This document shows positions 23,910-63,767 of a stretch of DNA of 64,000 nt, piece by piece. The DNA lies in contig OX424562.1 in the NCBI GenBank assembly GCA_949152475.1, positions 3,410,001-3,474,000 on the forward strand, given 5' to 3'. Origin of the DNA: Terebella lapidaria (lineage: Eukaryota; Annelida; Polychaeta; Terebellida; Terebellidae). The notes beneath the pieces are model-generated. The model was not told the DNA's origin and did no database searches. It saw nothing but the letters and a program-made list of their open reading frames with translations. A program made the position numbers and the translations under genes. Every line of letters starts with the position of its first letter. Positions within the stretch are counted from its first letter, which is position 1.

Positions 23910-24070
23910 TGTAGTGATACCACTGATCCTACCATGAGTTTGTAATGGTCGCGCATTCGCAGTATGATTTGTTGTCGGTAAACAAGTTTCCCAAAACGTC
24001 GGCTCACGTTTATTGAATAGCATACATCTAAACTGTTGTAATCAACACAGTCAGGTACTATCTCACTAAA
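23910..24070 (+). repeat. Gypsy 5' LTR
   Basis: 161 bp, starting TGTAGTGATACC and ending CTCACTAAA. It is followed at once by TGGTGGTAGCGG, a plausible tRNA primer site. It matches 31,430-31,590 at about 96%. The end is not the canonical CA; the boundary is set by the primer site and by the target duplication at the other LTR. Confidence 0.88.
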
Positions 24071-24139
24071 TGGTGGTAGCGGTGTTGAAAAGAACTCCAT
24101 GATCAACCTGAGTGCAACAACTTTTACCGTAAGACATTA

Positions 24140-26858
24140 GTCGGGCATGTACGGGGGGTCCCTTTGCACCCCCCCCCCCCCCCATGATCCTCCAAAACCA
24201 ACTTTTTTCTCAAGGTTTTTTAATACTAATAAACATTACATATGTCTCCGGTTGCGCATCCATTGCAAAAATTGGTTTTCGGGCCATTTTTCAAAATGGC
24301 CGCCCCGCGAAATCTCGAATTTTGAGATTGCTTCACTTTAAGCTGCATAGGTCTACAAAATAAAATCTTTGTTACCTTTTGCTGCTCATTGTAGGGGCCT
24401 TATACATTGTACATGAGAAAACAGTGCTTAAATAAACATTTATAATATGAATATGTCCATAAATCCAAGATGGCCGCCAAATTTAGATAATTTTTCACTA
24501 AAATGTCCATAACTTCAGACTGAGTCAACCTAGGATGTTCATTTTGGGGTCTATACCTAGGTTTTCATATACAGGGAATCCATTCAGACCAAAATAAATA
24601 CAATCAAGCTATTTCTTTTGATGCATGGATCCAAGATGGCCGCCAAATTTAGATCATTTTTCACTAAAATGTCCATAACTTCGGACTGAGTCAACCTAGG
24701 ATGTTCATTTTGGGGTCTATATCTAGGTTTTCATACACAGGGAATCCATTGAGACCAAAATAAATACAATCAAGCTATTTCTTTTGATGCATGTACACCT
24801 GCACACATGGTACACGCTACACATTCATTTAGATATCTCTCGAAAATAGCCCCCTTGACACCCCTATGGTCTCAATTGTGGATCTTGCTTGGATATTTCT
24901 GATAGAGACTTTTACTGATTTGCAATCCCAATAAATCCTTGAACAAATAGAGCTTGATTTGATTAGTTTTGTTAATTAACAGAAATCCAAGATGCCTGCT
25001 AAACACACCCCGAAAATTCAAGTTCGTAACTAATTGTGCTATAAAGATGTGTGATACTTACTTTCAAGGGTATTTTGGTATGTAGATTCCATTTTTGGTG
25101 TTATTCTAGCTATATAATATCAATTTAAAATGATAACAGCATCTCATTGAGATGGAAAGCAAATAAAAACATATTGTTATTTGAATTTATTCATACACTT
25201 ATGCATTACGCATTACTCACCAACATGCTTGGGATACTTTTTATATCACAAACAGAGAACAATAATGTAGAATATCTTCATTGGCTATCTTAACACATGA
25301 ACATGATGGAACATGGTACTATGATATTGGTACTGCTATATTGGCTGAATTGACATATTAACTGATGGTGCCTTCACCATTGCCCTGCATTCTCTTGCAG
25401 TACAACAATGTTGTCTTGAGCTGTCCGACATCATACCACTCAACATCCTCTATCTCAGTTCTGGAAAATTCCACATCACTTTTGCCACAATAGTCTCATT
25501 CATTGATCTAGACACACCTTCGTGTACGGACGGGTTGCCACTCTCCTGGGGCTGAACAGTTGTAATGCAAGTGATGTCGGACAGCTCAAGACAACGTTGT
25601 TGTACTGCAAGAGAATGCAGGGCAATGGTGAAGACATCATCAACTAATATGTCAATTCATCCAATATAGCAGTACCAATATCATAGTACCATGTTCCATC
25701 ATGTTCATGTGTTAAGATAGCCAATGAAGATATTCTACATTATTGTTCTCTGTTTGTGATATAAAAAGTATCCCAAGCATGTTGGTGAGTAATGCGTAAT
25801 GCATAAGTGTATGAATAAATTCAAATAACAATATGTTTTTATTTGCTTTCCATCTCAATGAGATGCTGTTATCATTTTAAATTGATATTATATAGCTAGA
25901 ATAACACCAAAAATGGAATCTACATACCAAAATACCCTTGAAAGTAAGTATCACACATCTTTATAGCACAATTAGTTACGAACTTGAATTTTCGGGGTGT
26001 GTTTAGCAGGCATCTTGGATTTCTGTTAATTAACAAAACTAATCAAATCAAGCTCTATTTGTTCAAGGATTTATTGGGATTGCAAATCAGTAAAAGTCTC
26101 TATCAGAAATATCCAAGCAAGATCCACAATTGAGACCATAGGGGTGTCAAGGGGGCTATTTTCGAGAGATATCTAAATGAATGTGTAGCGTGTACCATGT
26201 GTGCAGGTGTACATGCATCAAAAGAAATAGCTTGATTGTATTTATTTTGGTCTCAATGGATTCCTTGTGTATGAAAACCTAGATATAGACCCCAAAATGA
26301 ACATCCTAGGTTGACTCAGTCCGAAGTTATGGACATTTTAGTGAAAAATGATCTAAATTTGGCGGCCATCTTGGATGCATGCATCAAAAGAAATAGCTTG
26401 ATTGTATTTATTTTGGTCTAAATGGATTCCCTGTATATGAAAACCTAGGTATAGACCCCAAAATGAACATCCTAGGTTGACTCAGTCTGAAGTTATGGAC
26501 ATTTTAGTGAAAAATTATCTAAATTTGGCGGCCATCTTGGATTTATGGACATATTCATATTATAAATGTTTATTTAAGCACTGTTTTCTCATGTACAATG
26601 TATAAGGCCCCTACAATGAGCAGCAAAAGGTAACAAAGATTTTATTTTGTAGACCTATGCAGCTTAAAGTGAAGCAATCTCAAAATTCGAGATTTCGCGG
26701 GGCGGCCATTTTGAAAAATGGCCCGAAAACCAATTTTTGCAATGGATGCGCAACCGGAGACATATGTAATGTTTATTAGTATTAAAAAACCTTGAGAAAA
26801 AAGTTGGTTTTGGAGGATCATGGGGGGGGTGCAAAGGGACCCCCCGTACATGCCCGAC
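24140..26858. mobile_element. 2.7-kb foldback element with about 1.29-kb arms
   Basis: Left arm 24,140-25,433 and right arm 25,573-26,858 are near-perfect reverse complements. The termini are GTCGGGCATGTACGGGGGG and its complement, flanked by TA on both sides (24,138-24,139 and 26,859-26,860). A 139-bp centre (25,434-25,572) is unique. There is no transposase and no credible reading frame; the two MYGGSLCTPP frames at either end are the same arm read twice. It sits between the Gypsy primer site and gag. The close match of the arms implies a recent insertion or ongoing arm conversion. Confidence 0.9.
24463..24794. repeat. 166-bp tandem repeat within the foldback arm, YY1-like motif
   Basis: Two units (24,463-24,628 and 24,629-24,794) begin TCCAAGATGGCCGCCAAAT, and the mirror pair lies in the right arm (about 26,205-26,545). 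CAAGATGGCCGCC resembles the vertebrate YY1 consensus (AAGATGGCGGC), but function is not shown. Confidence 0.75.
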
Positions 26859-27059
26859 TACATTGTTTGCCCGTGAATGACACTTTGAAGTTGCACAAAC
26901 TTTTGCCGTAGAATCGCCGCGTGTATCGCATACCTCGTGGTAACGTTCGAGAAATATTTGTTGTCCAAAACTGTCCGAATATCACCATGGCGTCCAAAAT
27001 GCCCATGCTTGACTGGAAGTTTGAGCCACTAGCGGATTCGTTCAAGGCGTTTAAGGCAT

Positions 27060-27783
27060 GACACTATTACTAGCAGACAATGATGTAACCGACGCTGAAA
27101 AGCAGGCAACCAAAATAAAAATAGCCATAGGAGATGAAGGAATGCGACATGTTCTTGCTTCTGGACTCACGATGCACAGCAAAAAGACCCTAAAGAAATT
27201 TGGAAGCTGATAGAAAATCAGGTAGATGCCTCAGTGAAAATAAACTTTCGTGTTCATAGGCTGGAACTCATAAACATGCGCCAAAAACCTGATGAAACTA
27301 TCACTGATTTTGTGACCAGGCTACGTGAGAAAGCATCTAAATGTGAGCTCGATGCAAACGAACTAAACGAACGACTCATTGAAATGGTGATCCTGTCTAC
27401 CCCATTTGAGGAATTTCGTAAAGAACTGTTAACCAAACCGAGCAAACACCCAGTAGCTGAAATTATTGAACGTGGGAGAGAGTACGAAGCTATCACGTGA
27501 ATGTTCTAACTGTGGACTGCACCACCCACCGAGGTCCTGCCCTGCATACTTTGATGTTTGCCAGACTTGCAAGAGACAAGGCCACTGGCAGAGCTATTGC
27601 CGTTCAAACAAGGATTTTCAAGCACGTCACAGAAATCGATCACAGTACTGTAGAAGAGGCAGAGGCAGGGGTCGAAGTAGATCCAGATCTCGGAAAAGGT
27701 ATGAACGGAATCAGCACAGATCACCAGGTGACAAAACTCAGCATGAGGTCAATCTCTCGGAAGATGATGAAACATTCACCTAA
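27060..27783 (+). pseudogene. Gypsy gag remains
   Basis: Capsid-side text (INMRQKPDETITDFVTRLR, near 27,270-27,330) is followed by cysteine-rich knuckles (CSNCGLHHPPRSC and CQTCKRQGHWQSYC, near 27,500-27,600). An arginine/serine-rich tail (GRGRGRSRSRSRKR) follows. This is the nucleic-acid-binding end of a Gypsy gag. Fossil. Confidence 0.8.
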
Positions 27784-27795
27784 ACCTTTCACGGT

Positions 27796-30700
27796 GTGAC
27801 AGTCAGTGACATTTCTCTGGACCAAATCAAGGAACAAAATGAAGCATACACGACACTCATGGCATATCATCACAAGCCTAAAGTCCTAGGTCCACTCAAG
27901 CTAAAAGTGGATACGGGTGCAGGTGGAAACACTTTGCCTCTAAGGACGTATAAGCAGATGTTCGGAAAAATGCCCACTTCAAAGTTACTCAGCACAGAAC
28001 CCAGCATCACACTGACATCGTACAGTGGAGACCGAATTCCATGTCTGGGATCCATTCATCTGGGACTGAAGAAAAAGAGTAGTCCACAAGGTAGCAAGTT
28101 TATCAACCAAAAGTTTTTCGTGATTGACGTCCCAGGGCCCGCTGTAGTAGGACTGCCAACTTGCAAGATACTTGACCATGTACAGCTGAAAGTGGATGCT
28201 GTCAAATCAACAGACTCATCTGCCAAACAGCCCACTACACGCACAGTACATCAACAGCCTGATGTGAACAAGCTCAGTGCGTGTACCACGGAAGCCTTCA
28301 AACCACCACCACCTGAAACAAGACTTTCTTCAGTGGAAGACCTGAAGAACTGGTTTCCAGACTGTTTCGATGCCATTGGATGTTTTTCAGGAGAGGAACG
28401 TCTCTACTTACGTGCAGGCAGCACACCGCACATTGATCCTCCACGTCGCTGTCCAGTAGCATTGACCAGCAAAATAAAAGCTGAACTTGACAAGATGCAG
28501 GAAATGGACATCATTCGGAAGGTAACCTGCCACACTGACTGGTGTTCGTCAATCACATATGCTATTAAAAAGGATGACACACTCAGAGTCTGTCTGGATC
28601 CACAAAAGTTGAATCAAGCACTGAAGCGATGTCCCCACAAAATACCAACGATTGAGGAAAGAAACCCGGCTTTCAGCAAAGTGAAGGTGTTCACAAAACT
28701 TGACGCCAAGGCTGGCTACTGGAGTGTGAAACTGTCTCCAGAATCGCAAGAACTGACCACATTTCGAACACCATTTGGGAGGTACTGTTTTAAGCATCTT
28801 CCCTTCGGGTTATGTGTCAGTCAAGATCTGTTCCAGAAGCACATGGATAGAATCCTGGAACAGTGTGAAGGGTGCATTCGTATCAGTGACGACATTGTTG
28901 TGTACGGGAACTCTGAAGCAGAACATGATAAACGACTCATCAAGTTTCTCCAAGTTGCACGCCGAGAAGGACTGAAACTCAACTCCGCGAAGTGTGTTGT
29001 CAGGGCAAACAGAATCTCCTTCGGACGACTATACACGAACGAGGGCATGTATCCTGACCCAGATAAAGTTGAAGACGTGATGAGTATGCCAACACCACAA
29101 GATAAACAAGTTTTGCAGTGTTTTCTGGGCATGGTAACATTCTGTCTGGACAAATCCCCAACTTGTCAGCTCGCACATCCGTACTCAGGGATCTACTCAA
29201 ACAGGAGACTCCATTCAATTGGAATGATGATCACCAGAAAATTTTCTTGGACATCAAGGAAGTTGTAGCAAAGAACATCGGATTGCAGTACTATGATCCA
29301 TCAGTCGATGTTGAGCTTCATGTCGATGCCTCTACAAAAGGTCTAGGAGCAGTGTTTTCTGGGCATGGTAACATTCTGTCTGGACAAATCCCCAACTTGT
29401 CAGCTCGCACATCCGTACTCAGGGATCTACTCAAACAGGAGACTCCATTCGATTGGAATGATGATCACCAGAAAATTTTCTTGGACATCAAGGAAGTTGT
29501 AGCAAAGAACATCGGATTGCAGTACTATGATCCATCAGTCGATGTTGAGCTTCATGTCGATGCCTCTACAAAAGGTCTAGGAGCAGCATTGTTCCAGAGC
29601 AACCTGCCTGTTGCATTCGCTAGCAAATCACTCTCCAAAGCACAAGGGAATTACAGCAATATCGAAAGGGAGTGTCTCGCTAATGTGCATGGAATCATGA
29701 GATACCACCACTATCTCTATGGAAGACAATTCACGATTGTGACAGATCACAAGCCCTTTGAAGTTATTCTCCACAAGCCACTACATGCTGCACCTCCAAG
29801 GTTGCAAAGAATGTTAACAAAGATCCAAGGATACAACTTCAAAGTCGTGTACCAACCAGGTTCAACGATGGTAATACCTGACACTCTATCACGACTGCCA
29901 AATCAACAGAAAAATGAAGATATCGAACTTGATCACCATGTTCATAATATTCTACTGAGTGAGGTCGACAACATTGAGTTGGATCTTGTGCATTTCTCTC
30001 CAGCAAAGCAAACAGCACTGCGAGAAGAAACAGCTATGGACAATGTTCACAGTGCGTTGTCACAAGTTATCTACACAGGCTGGCCAGAAAAGATGCACCA
30101 GCTACCGACATTACTTCGTAACTTTTGGAGCTACAGAGATGAACTCGTGCTGGAAAATGGAAACATTTTCAAAGGAAGATAAGTTCTTGTACCACCAACT
30201 CTTCGACCCAACATTCTCAACCAGCTACATGAAAGTCACCAAGGGATAGGAAAAACACAGCGTCTGGCAAGAGAAAGTGTCTTTTGGCCAGGTATCAACA
30301 AGGACATAGAGACAGTGTGCAAGCTATGTTCCTACTGTCAGGAACTCCAACCAGCTCAGCCTAAGGAACCAATGAATATGCACGAGAAACCATCTTCGCC
30401 ATGGACAAAACTGGGTACAGACCTGTTCCAAATTGGAGACAAGAACTTTCTGATCATATCTGATTACTTCAGTAGATATCCAGTAGTCAGACAGCTGCGA
30501 TCAACAACAGCAAGAGCAATCATCGAAAAAACCAAGAGCATTCTCAGCATGTTTGGTGTGCCCAGGGAGATAATGTCTGATAACGGACCACAATATCAGC
30601 GTGAGTTTGATGAGTTCTGTGACAGCTGGGGCGTGAAACACATCACGAGTAGCCCTAGACATCCACAGTCAAACGATTTCATTGAGAGACAAATTCGTTA

Positions 30701-31318
30701 TCTGAAGCCAATCATAAAAAAATGCTTGAGATCATCTACGGACATTGAACGTGCACTTCTCAACGTCCGAGCTACTCCTCTAGGCACGGGACTACCCAGT
30801 CCAGCCGAGCTACTATTTGGGAGACCAATCTCAACCACTCTACCAAGCCGCTCTGATATCAGGACACCCGAGAAATACAGACAATGTATGTCAGAGAGTG
30901 CCACATCCCAGAAAGATATGCAGACAGGCATTATGGCACCAAGGAACAAGCACTGTTGGTCGGCGGCCAACCTGTTCGCGTCTTTGACAAAGAAAAGCGA
31001 CACTGGGCTCCTGCAACTGTTGTCAATAGATGCTCGGATCGGTCTTATGTGGTACAGACTGAAAATGGAGGTCAGTTGCGTCGTAATCGTGTTCAACTAC
31101 GTGACTCGTCATACTTACCCTCACAGGAACCATCTGATGGTCCAAGCAATGCCAATCAACCATTAACGTCATCTCAGACACTAGCGACAGTCACCCAAGA
31201 TCAACAACAACCCAAGGGTATTTTGAAGTCAGCACAGTCGGTTGACAATCAAGTTGACTATCGTACAAGATCAGGTCGTCTTGTACGTCCACCAGTTCGC
31301 TTCCAGGATGAAGTGTGA
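27796..31318 (+). pseudogene. Gypsy pol remains: protease, RT, RNase H, integrase
   Basis: Parts in order: aspartic protease motif VDTGAGGNTLPL (about 27,906-27,941); reverse transcriptase (about 28,430-29,060, with VFTKLDAKAGYWSVKL and CIRISDDIVVYG); RNase H (about 29,280-29,900, with VELHVDASTKGLGA and TDHKPFEVIL); an integrase zinc-binding-like region (about 30,180-30,360); and the integrase core (about 30,400-30,800, with SDYFSRYPVVRQL and MSDNGPQYQREFDEF). RT-RH-integrase is the Gypsy order. Fossil, broken in a few places; no attempt is made to read across them. Confidence 0.9.
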
Positions 31319-31429
31319 CTTTGTAACCTTGTGGTTTCCAGTTAGCATGAATGATTGAGTTTATTATGATTTTCATTTTGATATTCCATATGCATGTTTA
31401 ATGTTGTTTTCAGTCTAAAGAACGGGGGA

Positions 31430-31590
31430 TGTAGTGATACCACTGATCCTACCATGAGTTTGTAATGGTCGCGCATGCGCAGTATGATTTGTTGTCAGTA
31501 AACAAGTTTCCCAAAATGTCGGCTCACGTTTATTGAATAGCCTACATCTAAACTATTGTAATCAACACAGTCAGGTATCATCTCACTAAA
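31430..31590 (+). repeat. Gypsy 3' LTR
   Basis: 161 bp, preceded by a purine tract AAGAACGGGGGA. It contains a GCGCATGCGC palindrome (about 31,473-31,482) resembling the NRF1 consensus. It is followed by ACATC (31,591-31,595), the right copy of the target duplication. Confidence 0.9.
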
Positions 31591-33799: not shown

Positions 33800-34300
33800 G
33801 AACATGGGAATGTAAAAACCACAGGCACTCTTGGCGCCAACATGGAAATAAAAGGCCACTGGCACTCCCAGCGCTAACATGGAAATGAAGGACCACTGGC
33901 ACTCATGGCGCCAACATGGAATAAATGACCCTGGGCACTATGGATGCCACATGGAAAATAATTGACCACTGGCACTCTTGGTGCCAACCTGGAAATAAAT
34001 GACCCCTGGCACTCTGGGCGCCAACAAAAAAAATAACTGACCACTGGCACTCTTGGTGCCAACAAGGAAAACAACTGACCACTGGCACTTTGGGCGCCAA
34101 CATGGAAATAAATGACCCTTGTTATTCTGGGCGCCAACAAGGAACATATCTGGCCCTTGGCACTCTTGGCGCCAACATGGAAATGAGTGACCACTGGCAC
34201 TCTTAGCGCCAACATGGAAATGAGTGACCACTGGCACTCTTGGCGCCAACATGGAAATGAGTGACCACTGGCCCTCTTGGCGCCAACATGGAAACTGGCA
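33800..34300. repeat. 37-bp minisatellite (GGCGCCAACATGG...) within the DIRS/Ngaro-type element
   Basis: About 13 units of GGCGCCAACATGGAAATGAG plus TGACCACTGGCACTCTT. Because 37 is not a multiple of three, the translation repeats every 37 residues. Long minus-strand frames stay open in all three phases (33,874-34,812, 33,903-34,103, 33,938-34,252). It lies between the SGNH-like and gag-like parts. Confidence 0.85.
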
Positions 34301-34339
34301 GTCTGGAATGAAGAAAGTGTAATACCTGACAGGATTTGT

Positions 34340-35000
34340 TTGGCCTGAATGAGGGCTCCCCGGATGGATTGATAAAATTTCCTCAGGCCCAGGGAGTTCA
34401 GGTGCGTGCCGTCTTTATCAATTATCTCCTGGGCCATGTGCTGCATGCCCTTGTGGTTTCTGAGAAGGAAGCCCTGGGGCTCCAGCTGTGTCGCCTGGTG
34501 TTGCAGGTACTGGTTGATGGAGTTGGCCTTCCGGTTGTAGGACTGGACATGTGAGATAGTTGGGAGATATCTCCGGTTCTCGTAACGATTGAACAGTTTT
34601 CCAATGAACACCAGTCTCACGGAGGGATAACGGCAGAGCTGCTGGGCCAGGGAGACAATGTGCCCAGGTACCAGGTGATCGTCATGATCGGATCCAGTGA
34701 AGTCATTTCCCCCAATTTGAAGAAATACGACGTGAGGGTCACACTGTAAAATGGTTGATGTGTGGCTTGCTAGCTCCCGAGTGTGGGCCCCACTGAAATG
34801 GCTATGAATCATGAACGGAACAGGTGTACCACAATAATGGCAGGCACTGGTGTGAAATGCATAAGAATAATGATGAATGGAAGACGAAAAAACTTTTACT
34901 TTCTGAGGAAATTGACCAACTCGAACTGATAATGAGGCTCGCAGAGTTCACGACCCGACCCAACATAAGGAGGCCAGTTCATGACCCTTGCTGACCCAAA
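34340..35000 (-). pseudogene. SGNH hydrolase-like domain of the DIRS/Ngaro-type element
   Basis: The reading contains VVFLQIGGNDFTGSD (GGND, SGNH block III) and IIDKDGTHLNSLGLRKFY (D-x-x-H, block V), spaced about 100 residues apart as in SGNH/GDSL esterase folds. A clear block I serine motif is not seen; HSHFSGAHTRELA is the nearest text. Such domains accompany some Ngaro elements and some CR1 LINEs. Ownership by the DIRS/Ngaro-type element rests on position and strand. It runs straight into the 37-bp minisatellite. Part of it is duplicated at 37,914-38,094. Confidence 0.65.
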
Positions 35001-56764: not shown

Positions 56765-58464
56765 TCACATATGACCCATTTCAAGTACAAGGAAAATCAT
56801 TGGCACCCATTTCGAGTAGAAGGAAAATCATTGGCACCACCGTATATATTCGAGCTATGTTTGCATTGTCATCAGACTGTATAAGTCACGTACGTCGACG
56901 TGTATAATGTGCATGAGACATGGTGTCACCAGAAGGTAATAAATCGGCACAAGACCACAGATGATTTAGACAATATGTCCCCATTTATCATCGTGCGATC
57001 ACACAATAACTCACGATTTATCATCATGCAATTAGCGCCCAAAGACCTAGTAGCTTCTATGTCTATACACCATGACAGGTGTGGGCTAATTGGCCACAGA
57101 GTTGAAAACGATCAGAATGCAGTAACATCCCATCCTAGTCATTCATCACTGTCTGTGTCTGTCATATGGACTCGGATGAGGGATTGCAGGCAGATTGAAT
57201 GTCATGCATGTCTACTGAAATGAAAGCTCAAATCTGCTTATATGCAGCTGCAGTGTTAATCGGTCAATAAAGGCAGTAATCTGAGATCCTCTGTGGCTTA
57301 CTGTGACTATATATTGCTAACTTACTAAATCAATAACCACTGTGCAACTCTGCAAGTAGCATTGGAGTTGAAGATTAAGATAATGTGAGTTATATAATAT
57401 TTATCAAAATCCTTCCTCCACCAATGCAAAACGAAAATCTCATGAAGCTTATCAAGGAATAATAAAAATGAATTCACTAATCACCCGAATAACCATCAAG
57501 CATATTTTCTGACAGCTCCTCAAGCACTTGATGAACCAATTTCACACTCATGAAAACTATTAGCAATTATCAATTTCCACTTGTGACAGGGTTTGACATC
57601 ATCAATATTTTGAAGGCTCCATTGCAGTTTGTAGCTCGCGTTATGGAAGCAATGGAAACACAAAACCAACAAAACCATACCTCTGAAATTCCTTTTATCC
57701 ATCTATCTGAATTGGCATATTTTCCTTGATTTCAGCTCCCGAATAAACCAAATTATGTTCGTTTCTGTAATATAGTATGATGTCCCAGTGTATATTTTGG
57801 TCCTCACGTGTCCGAAAACGATTCTAAGCACTAAGCACTAGCTTCATGCGACTCGTTGCAAGTCTATCAAGCATGTGCAATTTATTACCCTAGGTAATAT
57901 GAATAATTATTTTTTGGTAAACACGAATATTACAGCTAACTTTACCACAAAGGATATATACAGGACACCATTGCCATTAAGCTCATTTTAATGTATACAT
58001 AATACAATCACCGTGACATGAGGAAATGACAGTACTCATAATTCAAGATTCTGCATGATAAAAAAAATCGCCACGTTAACAAGCAAATGGGGCATGTCAT
58101 ACACTCATTCAACAGGGGCAGCGTTGTACTTGGGGGTACATTTTGGCGCTGAATCACAAATGGATATTGTTTGTAATCAACAATCACATAAATGATCGTG
58201 GTAAAATTACGTGTATGTTTTCTGCTAATGCCAGAAAGCAGGATTACGACGTCATGTGTAACATCAAAACAGTGCTGCCAGCTGGCGATTGCAGATATTT
58301 CTGAGCATGCTGAACTACAGTTACACAACACTATGATACATACATGTATCAATATACATTCATAATATGACATGTAGTTATCAGAAACTTGTCAGGGAGA
58401 CACCTTAGAAAAACTTGATACTGGTCATGGAAACATGTCAGACCACCTCTGACTTGAAACTCTT

Positions 58465-58785
58465 CAGGGAGACATGCCAGACCAAACCTTGCCTTGAAAC
58501 TTGTCAGGGAGACATGCCAGACCAAACCTTGCCTTGAAACTTGTCAGGGAGACATGCCAGACCAAACCTTGACTTGAAACTTGTCAGGGAGACATGCCAG
58601 ACCAAACCTTGACTTGAAACTTGTCAGGGAGACATGTCAGACCAAATCTTGACTTCACACTTGTCAGGGAGACATGTCAGACCGACCCTTGACTTGGATC
58701 TTGCCAGGGGGACATGTCAGACTATAACTTGGCTTGAGACTTGTCAGGGAAATATGTCATACCAATCTGGGACCAGTACACTTAT
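58465..58785. repeat. 40-bp minisatellite, eight units (unit 1)
   Basis: CAGGGAGACATGCCAGACCA-type units start at 58,465 and recur every 40 bp to 58,745. A degenerate outlier lies at 58,393. The partner array in unit 2 has six. Confidence 0.92.
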
Positions 58786-60040
58786 AGTGAACACATCATT
58801 ACTTAATGGGTGCCATGCTTTTGACTTTCATAGCATGGCAATCAGAATAAGCAAACAGGGAAGTTCAATGCAAGTTACATACTTTAAAAGATACAACAGA
58901 CATTTGTGTTGTTGCTCATACCCGCAATGGAAGTGTGTAGTGGTTAAACACACAACCTCGTGGCAGACTCATTTTCCCTCAGGACTCAATCAATGATGAA
59001 AAATTTATAACAAATAGAATTCAAGCAATAGTGTATCGCTGATAGGAAGTCTGTAAGGCTGTGAACCCCAAATTGGATGTTGTAAGAAAATCTGAGATTT
59101 TTTTCTGTAAGGCTGTTCGGAAAGTCTGTGATTTCCTGACATGATTGATCAATGCCAAATCCGACCTATTCACAAAGTTTGATTGGCTAGAAAGATATGA
59201 CTACATGCGTATGTATGTGGTTAAATATGAGAATTTGAAAATTTCGGTCTGTTGAGGGTTTAGTTGATACTCAGCATCTGATGAATGCACATTCAATTGA
59301 TTCGGCAAATATATGGAAATTGGACATGTCCCACTTCCCTGCATGGAATTGTACAGAAACGCTTATGTCAAGGTTTTGATGATGGTAATAATGTAAGTAT
59401 CCATCTATTTCCACCAATACAGCCAAATTTTGATGATTCCAATAACGAACGTAAAATACATTTTGCAATATAAAAAAGCCTGACCGAACAGTTTATCAAA
59501 AAACACACTGAATATCACTGAAAGCCACACTGAAAATCACTGAAATATCACGAATATCACTGAAAGCCACACTGAAAACATAACTAACATTATCAGGGGC
59601 AAATATTACATATAGAAGGATGTAGAATTAGTGCAAAACTGCCAAACAACAGAACGAATCTATGTAAATCTCGTGTATGTACCTTGATATATAACCAGAG
59701 TATAAGTACCTAATACTAACCAAAACGCTACTGACCTGATAGTTTACAGGGCGGTAGATATCCACCATGGATTTGCTGTCTTTTCCTCCTTCTAAAACAA
59801 ACCTTGAAAAAAAAATCAGAATGACAATTATGGTTCGCCAATTTACCAATGAAATTTGCCAGGATACCAATGTTGATCTTTTCCCTATCAATTTTCACAA
59901 AATAAGAATACGTTCTGATAAACAGAAGTTGTTAGGCCATCAAACTCTCAAATGGTATGATACAATGGTTATATGTGGGTTTTTATCGATAAATGAAGAT
60001 AACAATTTGAGAGTACCATTAATCCATATGATTTTTCAAC

Positions 60041-60115
60041 ATTATGTTCATTTCTATATTTCATGTGTACATTTAATAAGTGAATTTTGAAATAAACAAG
60101 TTGAATTGAATTGAA
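60041..60115 (+). mobile_element. 75-bp LINE 3'-tail insertion with 8-bp target duplication
   Basis: TTTTCAAC flanks the insert on both sides (60,033-60,040 and 60,116-60,123), while unit 2 has one copy at the same site (about 63,591-63,598). The insert has AAATAAAC near its end and a TTGAA tail repeated three times, as expected for a 5'-truncated LINE inserted by target-primed reverse transcription. Confidence 0.8.
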
Positions 60116-60290
60116 TTTTCAACCAGTCTCAAAAATTCTGGCTAGTGAAACGCCATGATTCTCTTTCGGCGTTACTCCACTGGACCAGTGGCAACCAGGA
60201 CTCCCATTACTTACCCAAACAATACAATCTTGGTATGCATGTACAAACCAGCGCAGACGACTATGAAACAACGAACACACAAAATATGTA

Positions 60291-63200
60291 TCACATGTGA
60301 TCCATTTTAAATATAAGGAAAATCATTGGCACCACCGCATATATTCAAGCTATGTTTGCATTGTCATCAAACTGTATAAGTCAAGTACGTCAACCTCTAT
60401 AAGTTGCATGAGACATGGTGTCACCAGAAAGTAATAAATCGGCACAAAACCACAGATGATTTAGACAATATGTCCCCATTTATCATCGTGCAATCACACA
60501 ATACCTCACGATTTATCATCATGCAATTAGCGCCCAAAGACCTAGTTGCTTTTATATCTATACACCATGACAGGTGTAGGCTAATTGGCCACAGAGTTGA
60601 AAACGATCACAATAAAGTAACATCCCATCCTAGTCATTCATCACTATCTGCGTCTGTCATATGGACTCGGATGAGGGATTGCAGGCAGATTGAAAGTCAT
60701 GTATGTCTACTGAAATGAAGGTGTATATATATACATGTATTTTAATTCATTCGTTTTGTGTTTCATATTATGATCGTGTTATACATGTGTATTTTGTCTT
60801 GTATATGTAGAGCTTTAGATATTAAATGTCGTGCCCACAGAACTGGTGTTGGTTTAAAGCTCAAATCTGCTTATATGCAGCTGGTGTTAATCGGTCAATA
60901 AAGGCAGTAATCTGAGACCCTCTGTGGCTTACTGTGACTATATATTGCTCACTTACTAAATCAATAACCACTGTGCAACTCTGCAAGTAGCATTGGAGTT
61001 GAAGATTAAGATAATGTGAGTTAATATTTATCAAAATCCTTCCTCCACCAATGCAAAACGAAAATCTCATGAAGCTTATCAAGGAATAATAAAAATGAAT
61101 TCACTAATCACCCGAATAACCATCAAGCATATTTTCTGACAGCTCCTCAAGCACTTGATGAACCAATTTCACACTCATGAAAACTATTAGCAATTATCAA
61201 TTTCCACTTGTGACAGGGTTTGACATCATCAATATTTTGAAGGTTCCAATGCAGTGTGTGTGTTGCGTAATGGAAGCAATGGAAACACAACACCAACAAA
61301 ACCATACCTTTGAAATTCCTTTTATCCATCTATCTGAATTGGCATATTTTCCTTGATTTCAGCTCCCGAATAAACCAAATTATGTTCGTTTCTGTAATAT
61401 AGTATGATGTCCCAGTGTATATTTTGGTCCTCACGTGTCTGAAAACGATTCTAAGCACTAAGCACTAGCTTCATGCGACTCGTTGCAAGTCGTTGCAAGT
61501 ATATCAAGCATGTGCAATTTATTACCCTAGGTAATATGAATAATTATTTTTTGGTAAACACGAATATTACAGCTAACTTTACCACAAAGGATATACACAG
61601 GACACCATTGCCATTAAGCTCATTTTAATTTATACATAATACAATCACCGTGACATGAGGAAATGACAGTACTCATAATTCAAGATTCTGCATGATAAAA
61701 AAAATCGCCACGTTAACAAGCAAATGGGGCATGTCATACACTCATTCAACAGGGGCAGCGTTGTACTTGGGGGTACATTTTGGCGCTGAATCACAAATGG
61801 ATATTGTTTGTAATCAACAATCACATAAATTATCGGGTAAAATTACGTGTATGTTTTCTGCTAATGCCAGAAAGCAGGATTACGACGTCATGTGTAACAT
61901 CAAAACAGTGCTGCCAGCTGGCGATTGCAGATATTTCTGAGCATGCCGAACTACAGTTACACAACACTATGATACATACATGTATCATTATACATTCATA
62001 ATATGACATGTAGTTATCAGAAACTTGTCAGGGAGATACTTCAGAAAAACTTGATACTGGTCATGGAAACATGTCAGACCACCTCTGACTTGAAACTCTT
62101 CAGGGAGACATGTCAGACCAAACCTTGACTTAACACTTGTCAGGGAGACATGCCAGACCAAACCTTGCCTTGAAACTTGTCAGGGAGACATGCCAGACCA
62201 AACCTTGACTTGAAACTTGTCAGGGAGACATGTCAGACCGACCCTTGACTTGAATCTTGCCAGGGGGACATGTCAGACTTATAACTTGGCTTGAAACTTG
62301 TCGGGGAAATATGTCATACCAATCTGGGACCAGTACACTTATAGTGAACACATCATTACTTAATGGGTGCCATGCTTTTGACGTTCATAGCATGGCAATC
62401 AGAATAAGCAAACAGGGAAGTTCAATGCAAGTTACATACTTTAAAAGATACAACAGACATATGTGTTGTTGCTCATACCCGCAATGGAAGTCTGTAGTAG
62501 TTAAACACACAACCTCGTGGCAGACTCATTTTCCCTCAGGACTCAATCAATGATGACAAATTGATAACAAATAGAATTCAAGCAACAGTGTATCGCTGAT
62601 AGGAAGTATGTAAGGCTGTGAACCCCAAATTGGATGTTGTAAGAAAATCTGAGATTTTTTTCTGTAAGGCTGTTCAGAAAGTCTGTGATTTCCTGACATG
62701 ATTGATCAATGTCAAATCCGACCTATTCACAAAGTTTGATTGGCTAGAAAGATATGACTACATGCGTATGTATGTGGTTAAATATGAGAATTTGAAAATT
62801 TCGGTCTGTTGAGGGTTTAGTTGATACTCAGCATCTGATGAATGCACATTCAATTGATTCGGCAAATATATGGAAATTGGACATGTTCCACTTCCCTGCA
62901 CGGAATTGTACAGAAACGCTTATGTCAAGGTTTTGATGATGGTAATAATGTAAGTATCCATCTATTTCCACCAATACAGCCAAATTTTGATGATTCCAAT
63001 AACGAACGTAAAATACATTTTGCAATAGAAAAAAAGTCCTGACCAAACAGTTTATCAAAAAACACACTGAATATCACTGAAAGCCACACTGAAAATCACT
63101 GAAATATCACTGAATATCACTGAAAGCCACACTGAAAACATAACTAACATTATCAGGGGCAAATATTACATATAGAAGGATGTAGAATTAGTGCAAAACT

Positions 63201-63767
63201 GCCAAACAACAGAACGAATCTATGTAAATCTCGTGTATGTACCTTGATATATAGCCAGAGTATAAGTACCTGATACTAACCAAAACGCTCCTGAGCTGAT
63301 AGTTTACAGGGCGGTTGATATTCACCATGGATTGGCTGTTTTTTCTTCCTTCTAAAACAAAACCTTGACAAAAATCAGAATGACAATTATGGTTCGCCAA
63401 TTTACCAATGAAATTTGCCAGGATATCAATGTTGATCTTTTCCCTATCAATTTTCACAAAATAAGAATACGTTCTGATAAACAGAATTTGTTAGGCCATC
63501 AAACTCTCAAATGGTATGATACAATGCGTATATGTGGGTTTTTATCGATAAATGAAAATAACAATTTGAGGGTACCGTCAATCCATATGATTTTCAACCA
63601 GTTTCAAAAAATTGCTGGCTAGTGGAACGCCATGATTCTCGTTCGGCGTTACTCCACTGGACCAGTGGCAACCAGGACTCCCATTATTTACCCAAACAAT
63701 ACAACCTTGGTATGCATGTACAAACCAGCGCAGACGACTGTGAAACAACGAACACACAAAATATGTA
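60291..63767. repeat. 3.5-kb tandem duplication, unit 2
   Basis: The second copy of 56,765-60,290. It has about 137 bp (60,720-60,857) that unit 1 lacks, two fewer minisatellite units and no LINE-tail insertion. The extra 137 bp contain TTTTGTCTTGTATATGTAG, an acceptor-like sequence, but no coding evidence follows. Confidence 0.92.
62101..62342. repeat. 40-bp minisatellite, six units (unit 2)
   Basis: Units start at 62,101, 62,141, 62,181, 62,221, 62,261 and 62,302, the last step being 41 bp. They have the same sequence as the unit 1 array. Confidence 0.92.

Follow-up and report, generated by a model that had tools for sequence, protein, structure and literature searches.

A dispersed foldback DNA transposon in Terebella lapidaria with mirrored variation in its two long arms

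The foldback element and its insertion site

The window analysed here is a 64,000-nucleotide stretch of the genome of the polychaete Terebella lapidaria (assembly GCA_949152475.1, contig OX424562.1, positions 3,410,001 to 3,474,000). At 24138..26860 it contains a foldback element of about 2.7 kb, nearly all of which is made up of two inverted arms, and both of its ends, set by exact terminal words found genome-wide, read 5'-TAGTCGGGCATGTACGGGG. Arm alignment delimited a left arm of 1296 bp on the forward strand (24138..25433) and its inverted copy, the right arm, on the reverse strand (25572..26860). Between them lies a centre, or loop, of 138 bp on the forward strand (25434..25571), for which centre extraction was used as well. 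A first-pass annotation, made from the sequence alone, had placed the element at 24140..26858 around a 139-bp centre; the place and the small size of the centre stand, but each end lies 2 bp further out and the centre has the slightly different length given above.

The two long arms proved to be as alike as that annotation had claimed. The inverted pair 24176-25433 / 25572-26829 is 99% complementary over 1258 nt, a match so long and close that it needs no chance level. The outer 39-nt ends of the arms are 100% complementary, and they are parted from the 1258-nt stretch by a poly-C run whose length is unequal between the arms. The count of arm-to-arm divergence, which had been proposed as a check, gave 9 substitutions plus a 7-base difference in poly-C length, with a longest identical run of 604 bp. 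The innermost 100 bp of the arm hold six of the nine substitutions, and the outer 440 bp are free of them. Each arm also carries two 166-bp tandem units, located at 24458-24623 and 24624-24789 in the left arm (24458..24789, forward strand) and, mirrored, at 26212-26377 and 26378-26543 in the right arm (26212..26543, reverse strand). No listed open reading frame of at least 120 aa overlaps the element, in agreement with the earlier statement that it contains no transposase.

Arms this long and this alike had been called unusual for a MITE, and the element is better described as a foldback, a non-autonomous transposon with long terminal inverted repeats (TIRs). MITEs in the strict sense stay below about 0.8 kb and have short TIRs, and we rejected this class for a 2.7-kb element with 1.29-kb arms.

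The foldback is inserted in an LTR retrotransposon on the forward strand (23910..31590), recognised by its repeats and domains and delimited provisionally by a matching repeat pair (23910-24070 / 31430-31590, 96% match). It sits 67 bp inside the 5' repeat of this host. RVT_1 and then rve domains lie inside the retrotransposon, which we take to be of Gypsy type on the basis of this gene order. Its pol region also holds two head-to-tail 234-bp copies that are 100% identical (window 29115-29582).

Two copies of a 3-bp target site duplication, CAT, flank the foldback at 24135..24137 and 26861..26863, as given by the duplication analysis and by the single CAT at the joined site in paralogous loci. 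For the window copy only, we joined its flanks with one CAT to form a 400-bp query, and four paralogous loci aligned over 1-398 of the 400 bp at 93-96%. The joint was also crossed at a fifth place (6-398, 76%) and a sixth place (3-239, 92%), and in the window itself the match to the joined flanks is interrupted by the foldback element. These places appear to be further copies of the retrotransposon that the foldback entered, so that the empty sites for which the first-pass annotation had suggested a search are represented by four near-identical ones.

Family copies, target duplications and class assignment

The 761.6-Mb assembly (438 contigs) was searched for further copies. With the left arm as query, the best 40 of 725 candidate places each matched over at least 1281 bases at 98-100% and were distributed over 15 contigs, and the centre gave 267 candidate places, 40 of which were scored. 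The 19-bp terminal word TAGTCGGGCATGTACGGGG occurred exactly 286 times forward and 257 times in reverse, 543 in all, and its reversed control 0 times; such a number of ends would correspond to some 270 elements. Genome copy number had been another proposed check, and these 543 exact ends together with at least 40 arm places at 98-100% refute a single-copy sequence. Among 61 loci (the window and 60 others), 54 with exactly one unambiguous end per side were used for the analysis of duplications: a perfect 3-bp target duplication was present in 53 of them, and 4-bp identity in none. The window element is thus shown to be one copy of a dispersed mobile family.

Long inverted repeats are known to mislead assemblies, and a palindromic artefact had been named in advance as what might undo the observation; an immobile, local inverted duplication is a related alternative. 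The dispersed copies have their own 3-bp duplications (53/54), real differences separate the arms, and the four near-identical empty sites add to this. Because of the dispersed copies with their duplications and the empty sites, an assembly palindrome is excluded, and we give practically no weight to this explanation as a whole.

After strand merging, the 53 duplications comprised 23 ATA, 8 TAA and 22 spread over twelve other triplets. The symmetric target logo of the 53 sites is roughly A...C-WWW-G...T, with a middle base that is A/T in 94% and a C or G beside the triplet in 46%. A reading of the duplication as TA was discarded when more copies gave 3 bp, with TA being part of the element. 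Since the duplication is 3 bp and TA lies inside the element, Tc1/mariner and ISL2EU, for which a 2-bp TA or AT duplication is expected, were dropped. PIF/Harbinger duplicates TWA, ISL2EU AT, Pangu ANT and NuwaI CWG (PHIS; PMC4482050). Like PIF/Harbinger, the present family has a 3-bp AT-rich duplication, but going by that published list its triplet set fits none of TWA, AT, ANT and CWG, and PIF/Harbinger was rejected with TWA in just 8/53. Zator and AcademX are described with target duplications of 3 bp and 3-4 bp, respectively (PMC10045372), which is compatible with the 3 bp found here in a comparison of length alone.

Several foldbacks resemble this family in one respect or another. Tc4 of Caenorhabditis elegans reportedly has a fold-back structure, as here, and Galileo is said to make a longer target duplication. 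The 3-bp duplication of Tc4 also falls inside a short palindromic target, TNA within CTNAG (PMC11071193). In contrast to that description, only 8 of the 53 duplications here are TNA (TAA/TTA, none TCA/TGA) and 23 are ATA/TAT, and the fit to Tc4 was rejected. Galileo, one of the Foldback-like Drosophila elements, is placed in the P superfamily by its putative transposase (PMC4168063), and shares with the present family Foldback-like long TIRs on a DNA transposon.

Another likeness is to Tetris of Drosophila virilis, described as a non-autonomous foldback with arms of up to 1735 bp and internal tandem units that vary in number (PMC4079207). Foldbacks with long arms, tandem arm units and no known partner have therefore been described already. 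The tandem units are about 220 bp in Tetris and 166 bp here, an autonomous partner was found for neither according to that account, and a shorter deletion relative is a further likeness, DAIBAM in the case of Tetris (PMC4079207). Unlike the present family, the same account gives Tetris a duplication of 8-10 bp, for which Mutator is suggested, and three structurally complete copies, and its remark on homogenisation concerns the tandem units. Mutator-like foldbacks (Tetris and kin) were rejected, as a duplication of 8-10 bp is expected and 4-bp identity was found in 0/54. A 3-bp, often ATA-type duplication on a foldback suggests a mover that falls under neither Mutator nor P nor Tc4.

We sized 56 TIR pairs, 39 of them from 100 listed ends and 17 among ends flanked by TAA/TTA. 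Of these pairs, 53 measured 746-3065 bp and the other three 5.65, 9.4 and 12.5 kb. No autonomous partner with the same ends was found among the 56 pairs and 46 unpaired ends, for which 158 of the 543 exact ends were listed. All three pairs longer than 3.1 kb contain a reverse-transcriptase frame: the 9.4-kb pair (L029) has an endonuclease frame in addition, with a UPF0029 (IMPACT-like) frame upstream; the 12.5-kb pair (L030/L031) has a Gypsy-type RT-RNaseH-integrase frame; and the 5.65-kb pair has its frame in L061, with about 2.3 kb of the pair lying outside the fetched stretch. Because of these frames, the contents were read as nested retroelements, not transposase genes, and the three pairs were rejected as autonomous partners.

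The UPF0029 frame is an observation in its own right. It lies at L029:1831-2304 (C1:58210200-58220199; E 2.8e-18), upstream of the endonuclease and reverse-transcriptase frames in a retroelement that is itself repeated and sits inside the 9.4-kb foldback, and this upstream region recurs at 97-98% on contigs C5, C320 and C11 (on C11 from position 520).

Other searches for a mover gave similar results. The TIR word followed by three non-arm bases had six matches, five in known arms and one in a decayed relative (L073/L075, C9:20476753). This relative has the same 19-bp end, pieces that are 82-89% like the arm and no informative frame, and no inverted partner of at least 25 bp was reported for its end in about 9 kb. 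A 12-bp end followed by non-arm bases gave three matches, which is control level (2 + 3). In the three frames of the arm and of the spacer of subfamily B described below, no Pfam family scored above cut-off; PF07592 (ISAzo13-like, Zator) had 0 matches and was also silent in 14 of 14 controls. The exact TIR word had 0 occurrences in viral contigs and 0 in prokaryote contigs.

The long inverted arms, the duplication of constant length and, for the window copy, the empty paralogous site are features of a foldback (long-TIR) element. In this regard, the family is a non-autonomous foldback DNA transposon whose movement most likely depends on a transposase acting in trans. In the mechanism that we propose, a DDE-type transposase provided by another element would bind the ends of both arms, and the bound element would be excised and inserted by cut and paste at AT-rich triplets often flanked as C-WWW-G. 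In source elements the arms would correct each other from time to time, by gene conversion or hairpin mismatch repair, so that unit number and substitutions would become mirrored. We hold it highly probable that this joint explanation, comprising a dispersed foldback, a DDE-type transposase acting in trans and source-element arms that correct each other, applies to the family.

Mirrored variation between the arms

The copies fall into subfamilies. Subfamily A, which includes the window copy, is about 2.72 kb long and has two 166-bp tandem units per arm and one centre; among extracted centres, that of the window copy measures 138 bp and those of 16 other A copies 151-154 bp. Subfamily B is about 2.98 kb long, with one 166-bp unit per arm; it contains the centre twice, in inverted orientation, together with a spacer of about 350-370 bp, and two B-type elements (L059 and L062) have three units per arm. 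For analyses of B, 19 of 27 fetched B-like loci were used, these being near-full and having both ends. B1 comprises 13 copies on 7 contigs with a mean pairwise divergence of 0.41% and a minimum of 3 differences in 2981 bp, and its 351-bp spacer was identical in 13 of the best 40 of 66 candidate places, the query's own included. B1 is a very young subfamily, and its transposition is recent on any clock.

The arms of 18 of the 21 A copies were oriented and compared, leaving out three without a centre match. Mean divergence between a left and a right arm was 1.25% within a copy and 1.94% when the two arms were taken from different copies. Left/right concordance was 85.6% over the 29 sites whose minor allele was carried by at least 4 arms, whereas permuting the copies 1000 times gave a mean of 62.5% and a maximum of 75.9%. 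Variants private to one copy were present in both arms 11 times, compared with 0.14 expected from 158 one-arm private variants, and some of these may belong to unsampled sublineages rather than being fresh conversions. Comparison of A with B1 gave 31 sites at which both arms carry the difference alike and 12 at which only the two B1 arms differ from each other; no site carries a left/right difference common to A and B1. These counts concern columns in which each of the four groups reaches 80% agreement and 12 of the 13 B1 copies (L050 has part of an arm missing), and the 80% rule leaves looser left/right differences of A near the loop uncounted.

Repeat number was mirrored as well. In 36 of 37 elements the left and right arms had the same number of 166-bp units (1/1 units: 17 elements; 2/2: 17; 3/3: 2), the exception being L009 with 2/1; these elements are not independent, since the young B1 source accounts for 13 of the 17 that have 1/1 units.

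The same mirroring could have come from repeated fresh inverted duplication, in which diverged single-arm ancestors would each have founded a subfamily by re-making the palindrome through fold-back copying, with no correction involved. Such events would also yield the 31 mirrored A/B1 differences and the 1/1, 2/2 and 3/3 units, and they would suit the single centre copy of A against the two inverted ones of B. However, the 17 extracted A centres have starts and ends that are alike, which suggests one origin, and yet mirrored variants differ among A copies at the 29 sites. Given these common boundaries of the A centres, the mirrored differences are hard to explain by separate births of the palindrome. 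Moreover, L059 and L062, with 3/3 units, carry the same B spacer (86-88%) as B elements with 1/1 units. Leaving aside the decayed relative L073/L075, no single-arm ancestor was met in searches aimed at other questions, and we regard repeated fresh duplication as quite unlikely.

Arm-to-arm correction in source elements thus appears to be the simplest account of the mirroring, as judged from strong sequence evidence. Only 7 of 36 A arms and 4 of 38 B arms had their own partner as the closest match; because the partner is so rarely nearest, correction would show at the sources of subfamilies and would not be constant in each resident copy. Most resident copies seem simply to decay, and 13 differences separate the left from the right arm in L037, the B1 representative.

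Mirrored arm evolution would also preserve pairing, and the near-perfect 1.29-kb arms with their 604-bp identical run might suggest that long double-stranded RNA and small RNAs arise from the element, or even that it is maintained for this purpose. A read-through transcript could possibly form a long hairpin via this run. On the other side, an Rfam scan of 24130-26870 returned no family at gathering score, and the copy number, target duplications and young burst would be explained by transposition alone. A function of this kind is, in our estimation, rather improbable.

That both TIRs of a single element recombine with each other has a precedent in Wolbachia insertion sequences, in which gene conversion leaves them identical (PMC3004938). 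The case described there is bacterial and concerns two loci, whereas here the concert is subfamily-wide and extends over 1.3-kb arms. In a limited literature search (titles and abstract openings; gene conversion or concerted evolution), we found no report of mirrored subfamilies. The arm concert is shown unusually clearly here, in a kind of foldback that is already known. To our knowledge, why foldback arms stay alike has seldom been measured. The present family offers hundreds of ends in one genome and several subfamilies, with mirrored substitutions and repeat numbers across many copies, so that the rate, direction and starting point of arm correction become measurable, and it lets one ask whether transposase cuts drive this correction.

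Mismatches along the arm and other observations

The position of mismatches along the arm bears on a more specific reading of arm-to-arm correction, namely that the foldback shape would be a self-correcting device in which cuts by the transposase at the ends expose one arm, the opposite arm serves for repair and conversion proceeds inward. If so, inward conversion would keep the end regions and the number of tandem units alike, and the parts near the loop would drift. In subfamily A, private one-arm mutations were evenly distributed (75 in the outer half, 79 in the inner half), and inherited left/right discordances numbered 23 outer and 88 inner (Fisher p 3e-6, on cells that share ancestry). 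Counted by distinct sites, the discordances were 12 outer and 24 inner (p 0.004 against mirrored-only sites, 0.14 against private mutations). Arm divergence within A copies was 0.86% in the outer half, as against 1.68% between copies, and 1.52% in the inner half, as against 1.99% between copies. The arm differences in L037 comprise one at position 648 and twelve that lie inward of it (binomial p 0.008, post hoc).

A test in B, with one B1 copy and six older B copies, gave p 0.03, and 83 of the 107 discordant B cells came from L059 and L062, mostly from one common replaced block at about 885-960 of the arm. Without these two elements, inherited sites numbered 9 outer and 5 inner (p 0.21), and with all 12 B1 copies 13 outer and 18 inner (p 1.0). 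The finding that inherited mismatches are fewer in the outer than in the inner half of the arm is only suggestive, and it is not robust, as older B copies do not show it. Inward conversion would fit the A copies and the B1 source but not the older B copies, and we consider the self-correcting device conceivable at low probability.

Elsewhere in the window, direct repeats spaced about 3.5-3.6 kb apart, 93-98% identical and with 40-bp tandem arrays, occupy 56807-63374, which is apparently a large tandem duplication. At 33877-34812, a frame that weakly resembles GDSL lipases (25.2 bits against a cut-off of 32.9) enters an array of about 37-bp repeats; next to it are duplicated stretches (34.7-40.6 kb) and a frame with RVT_1 (40.1-41.1 kb). 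In the assembly, COX1 of the mitochondrial contig C438 (15,973 bases) reads sensibly with AGA as Ser, ATA as Met and AAA as Lys, presumably code 5 of an invertebrate host, and it seems to resemble COX1 of annelids or molluscs. A further, weaker likeness to COX1, interrupted by nine TGA codons, lies at C417:44633-46450 and is possibly a nuclear copy, a symbiont or a contaminant.
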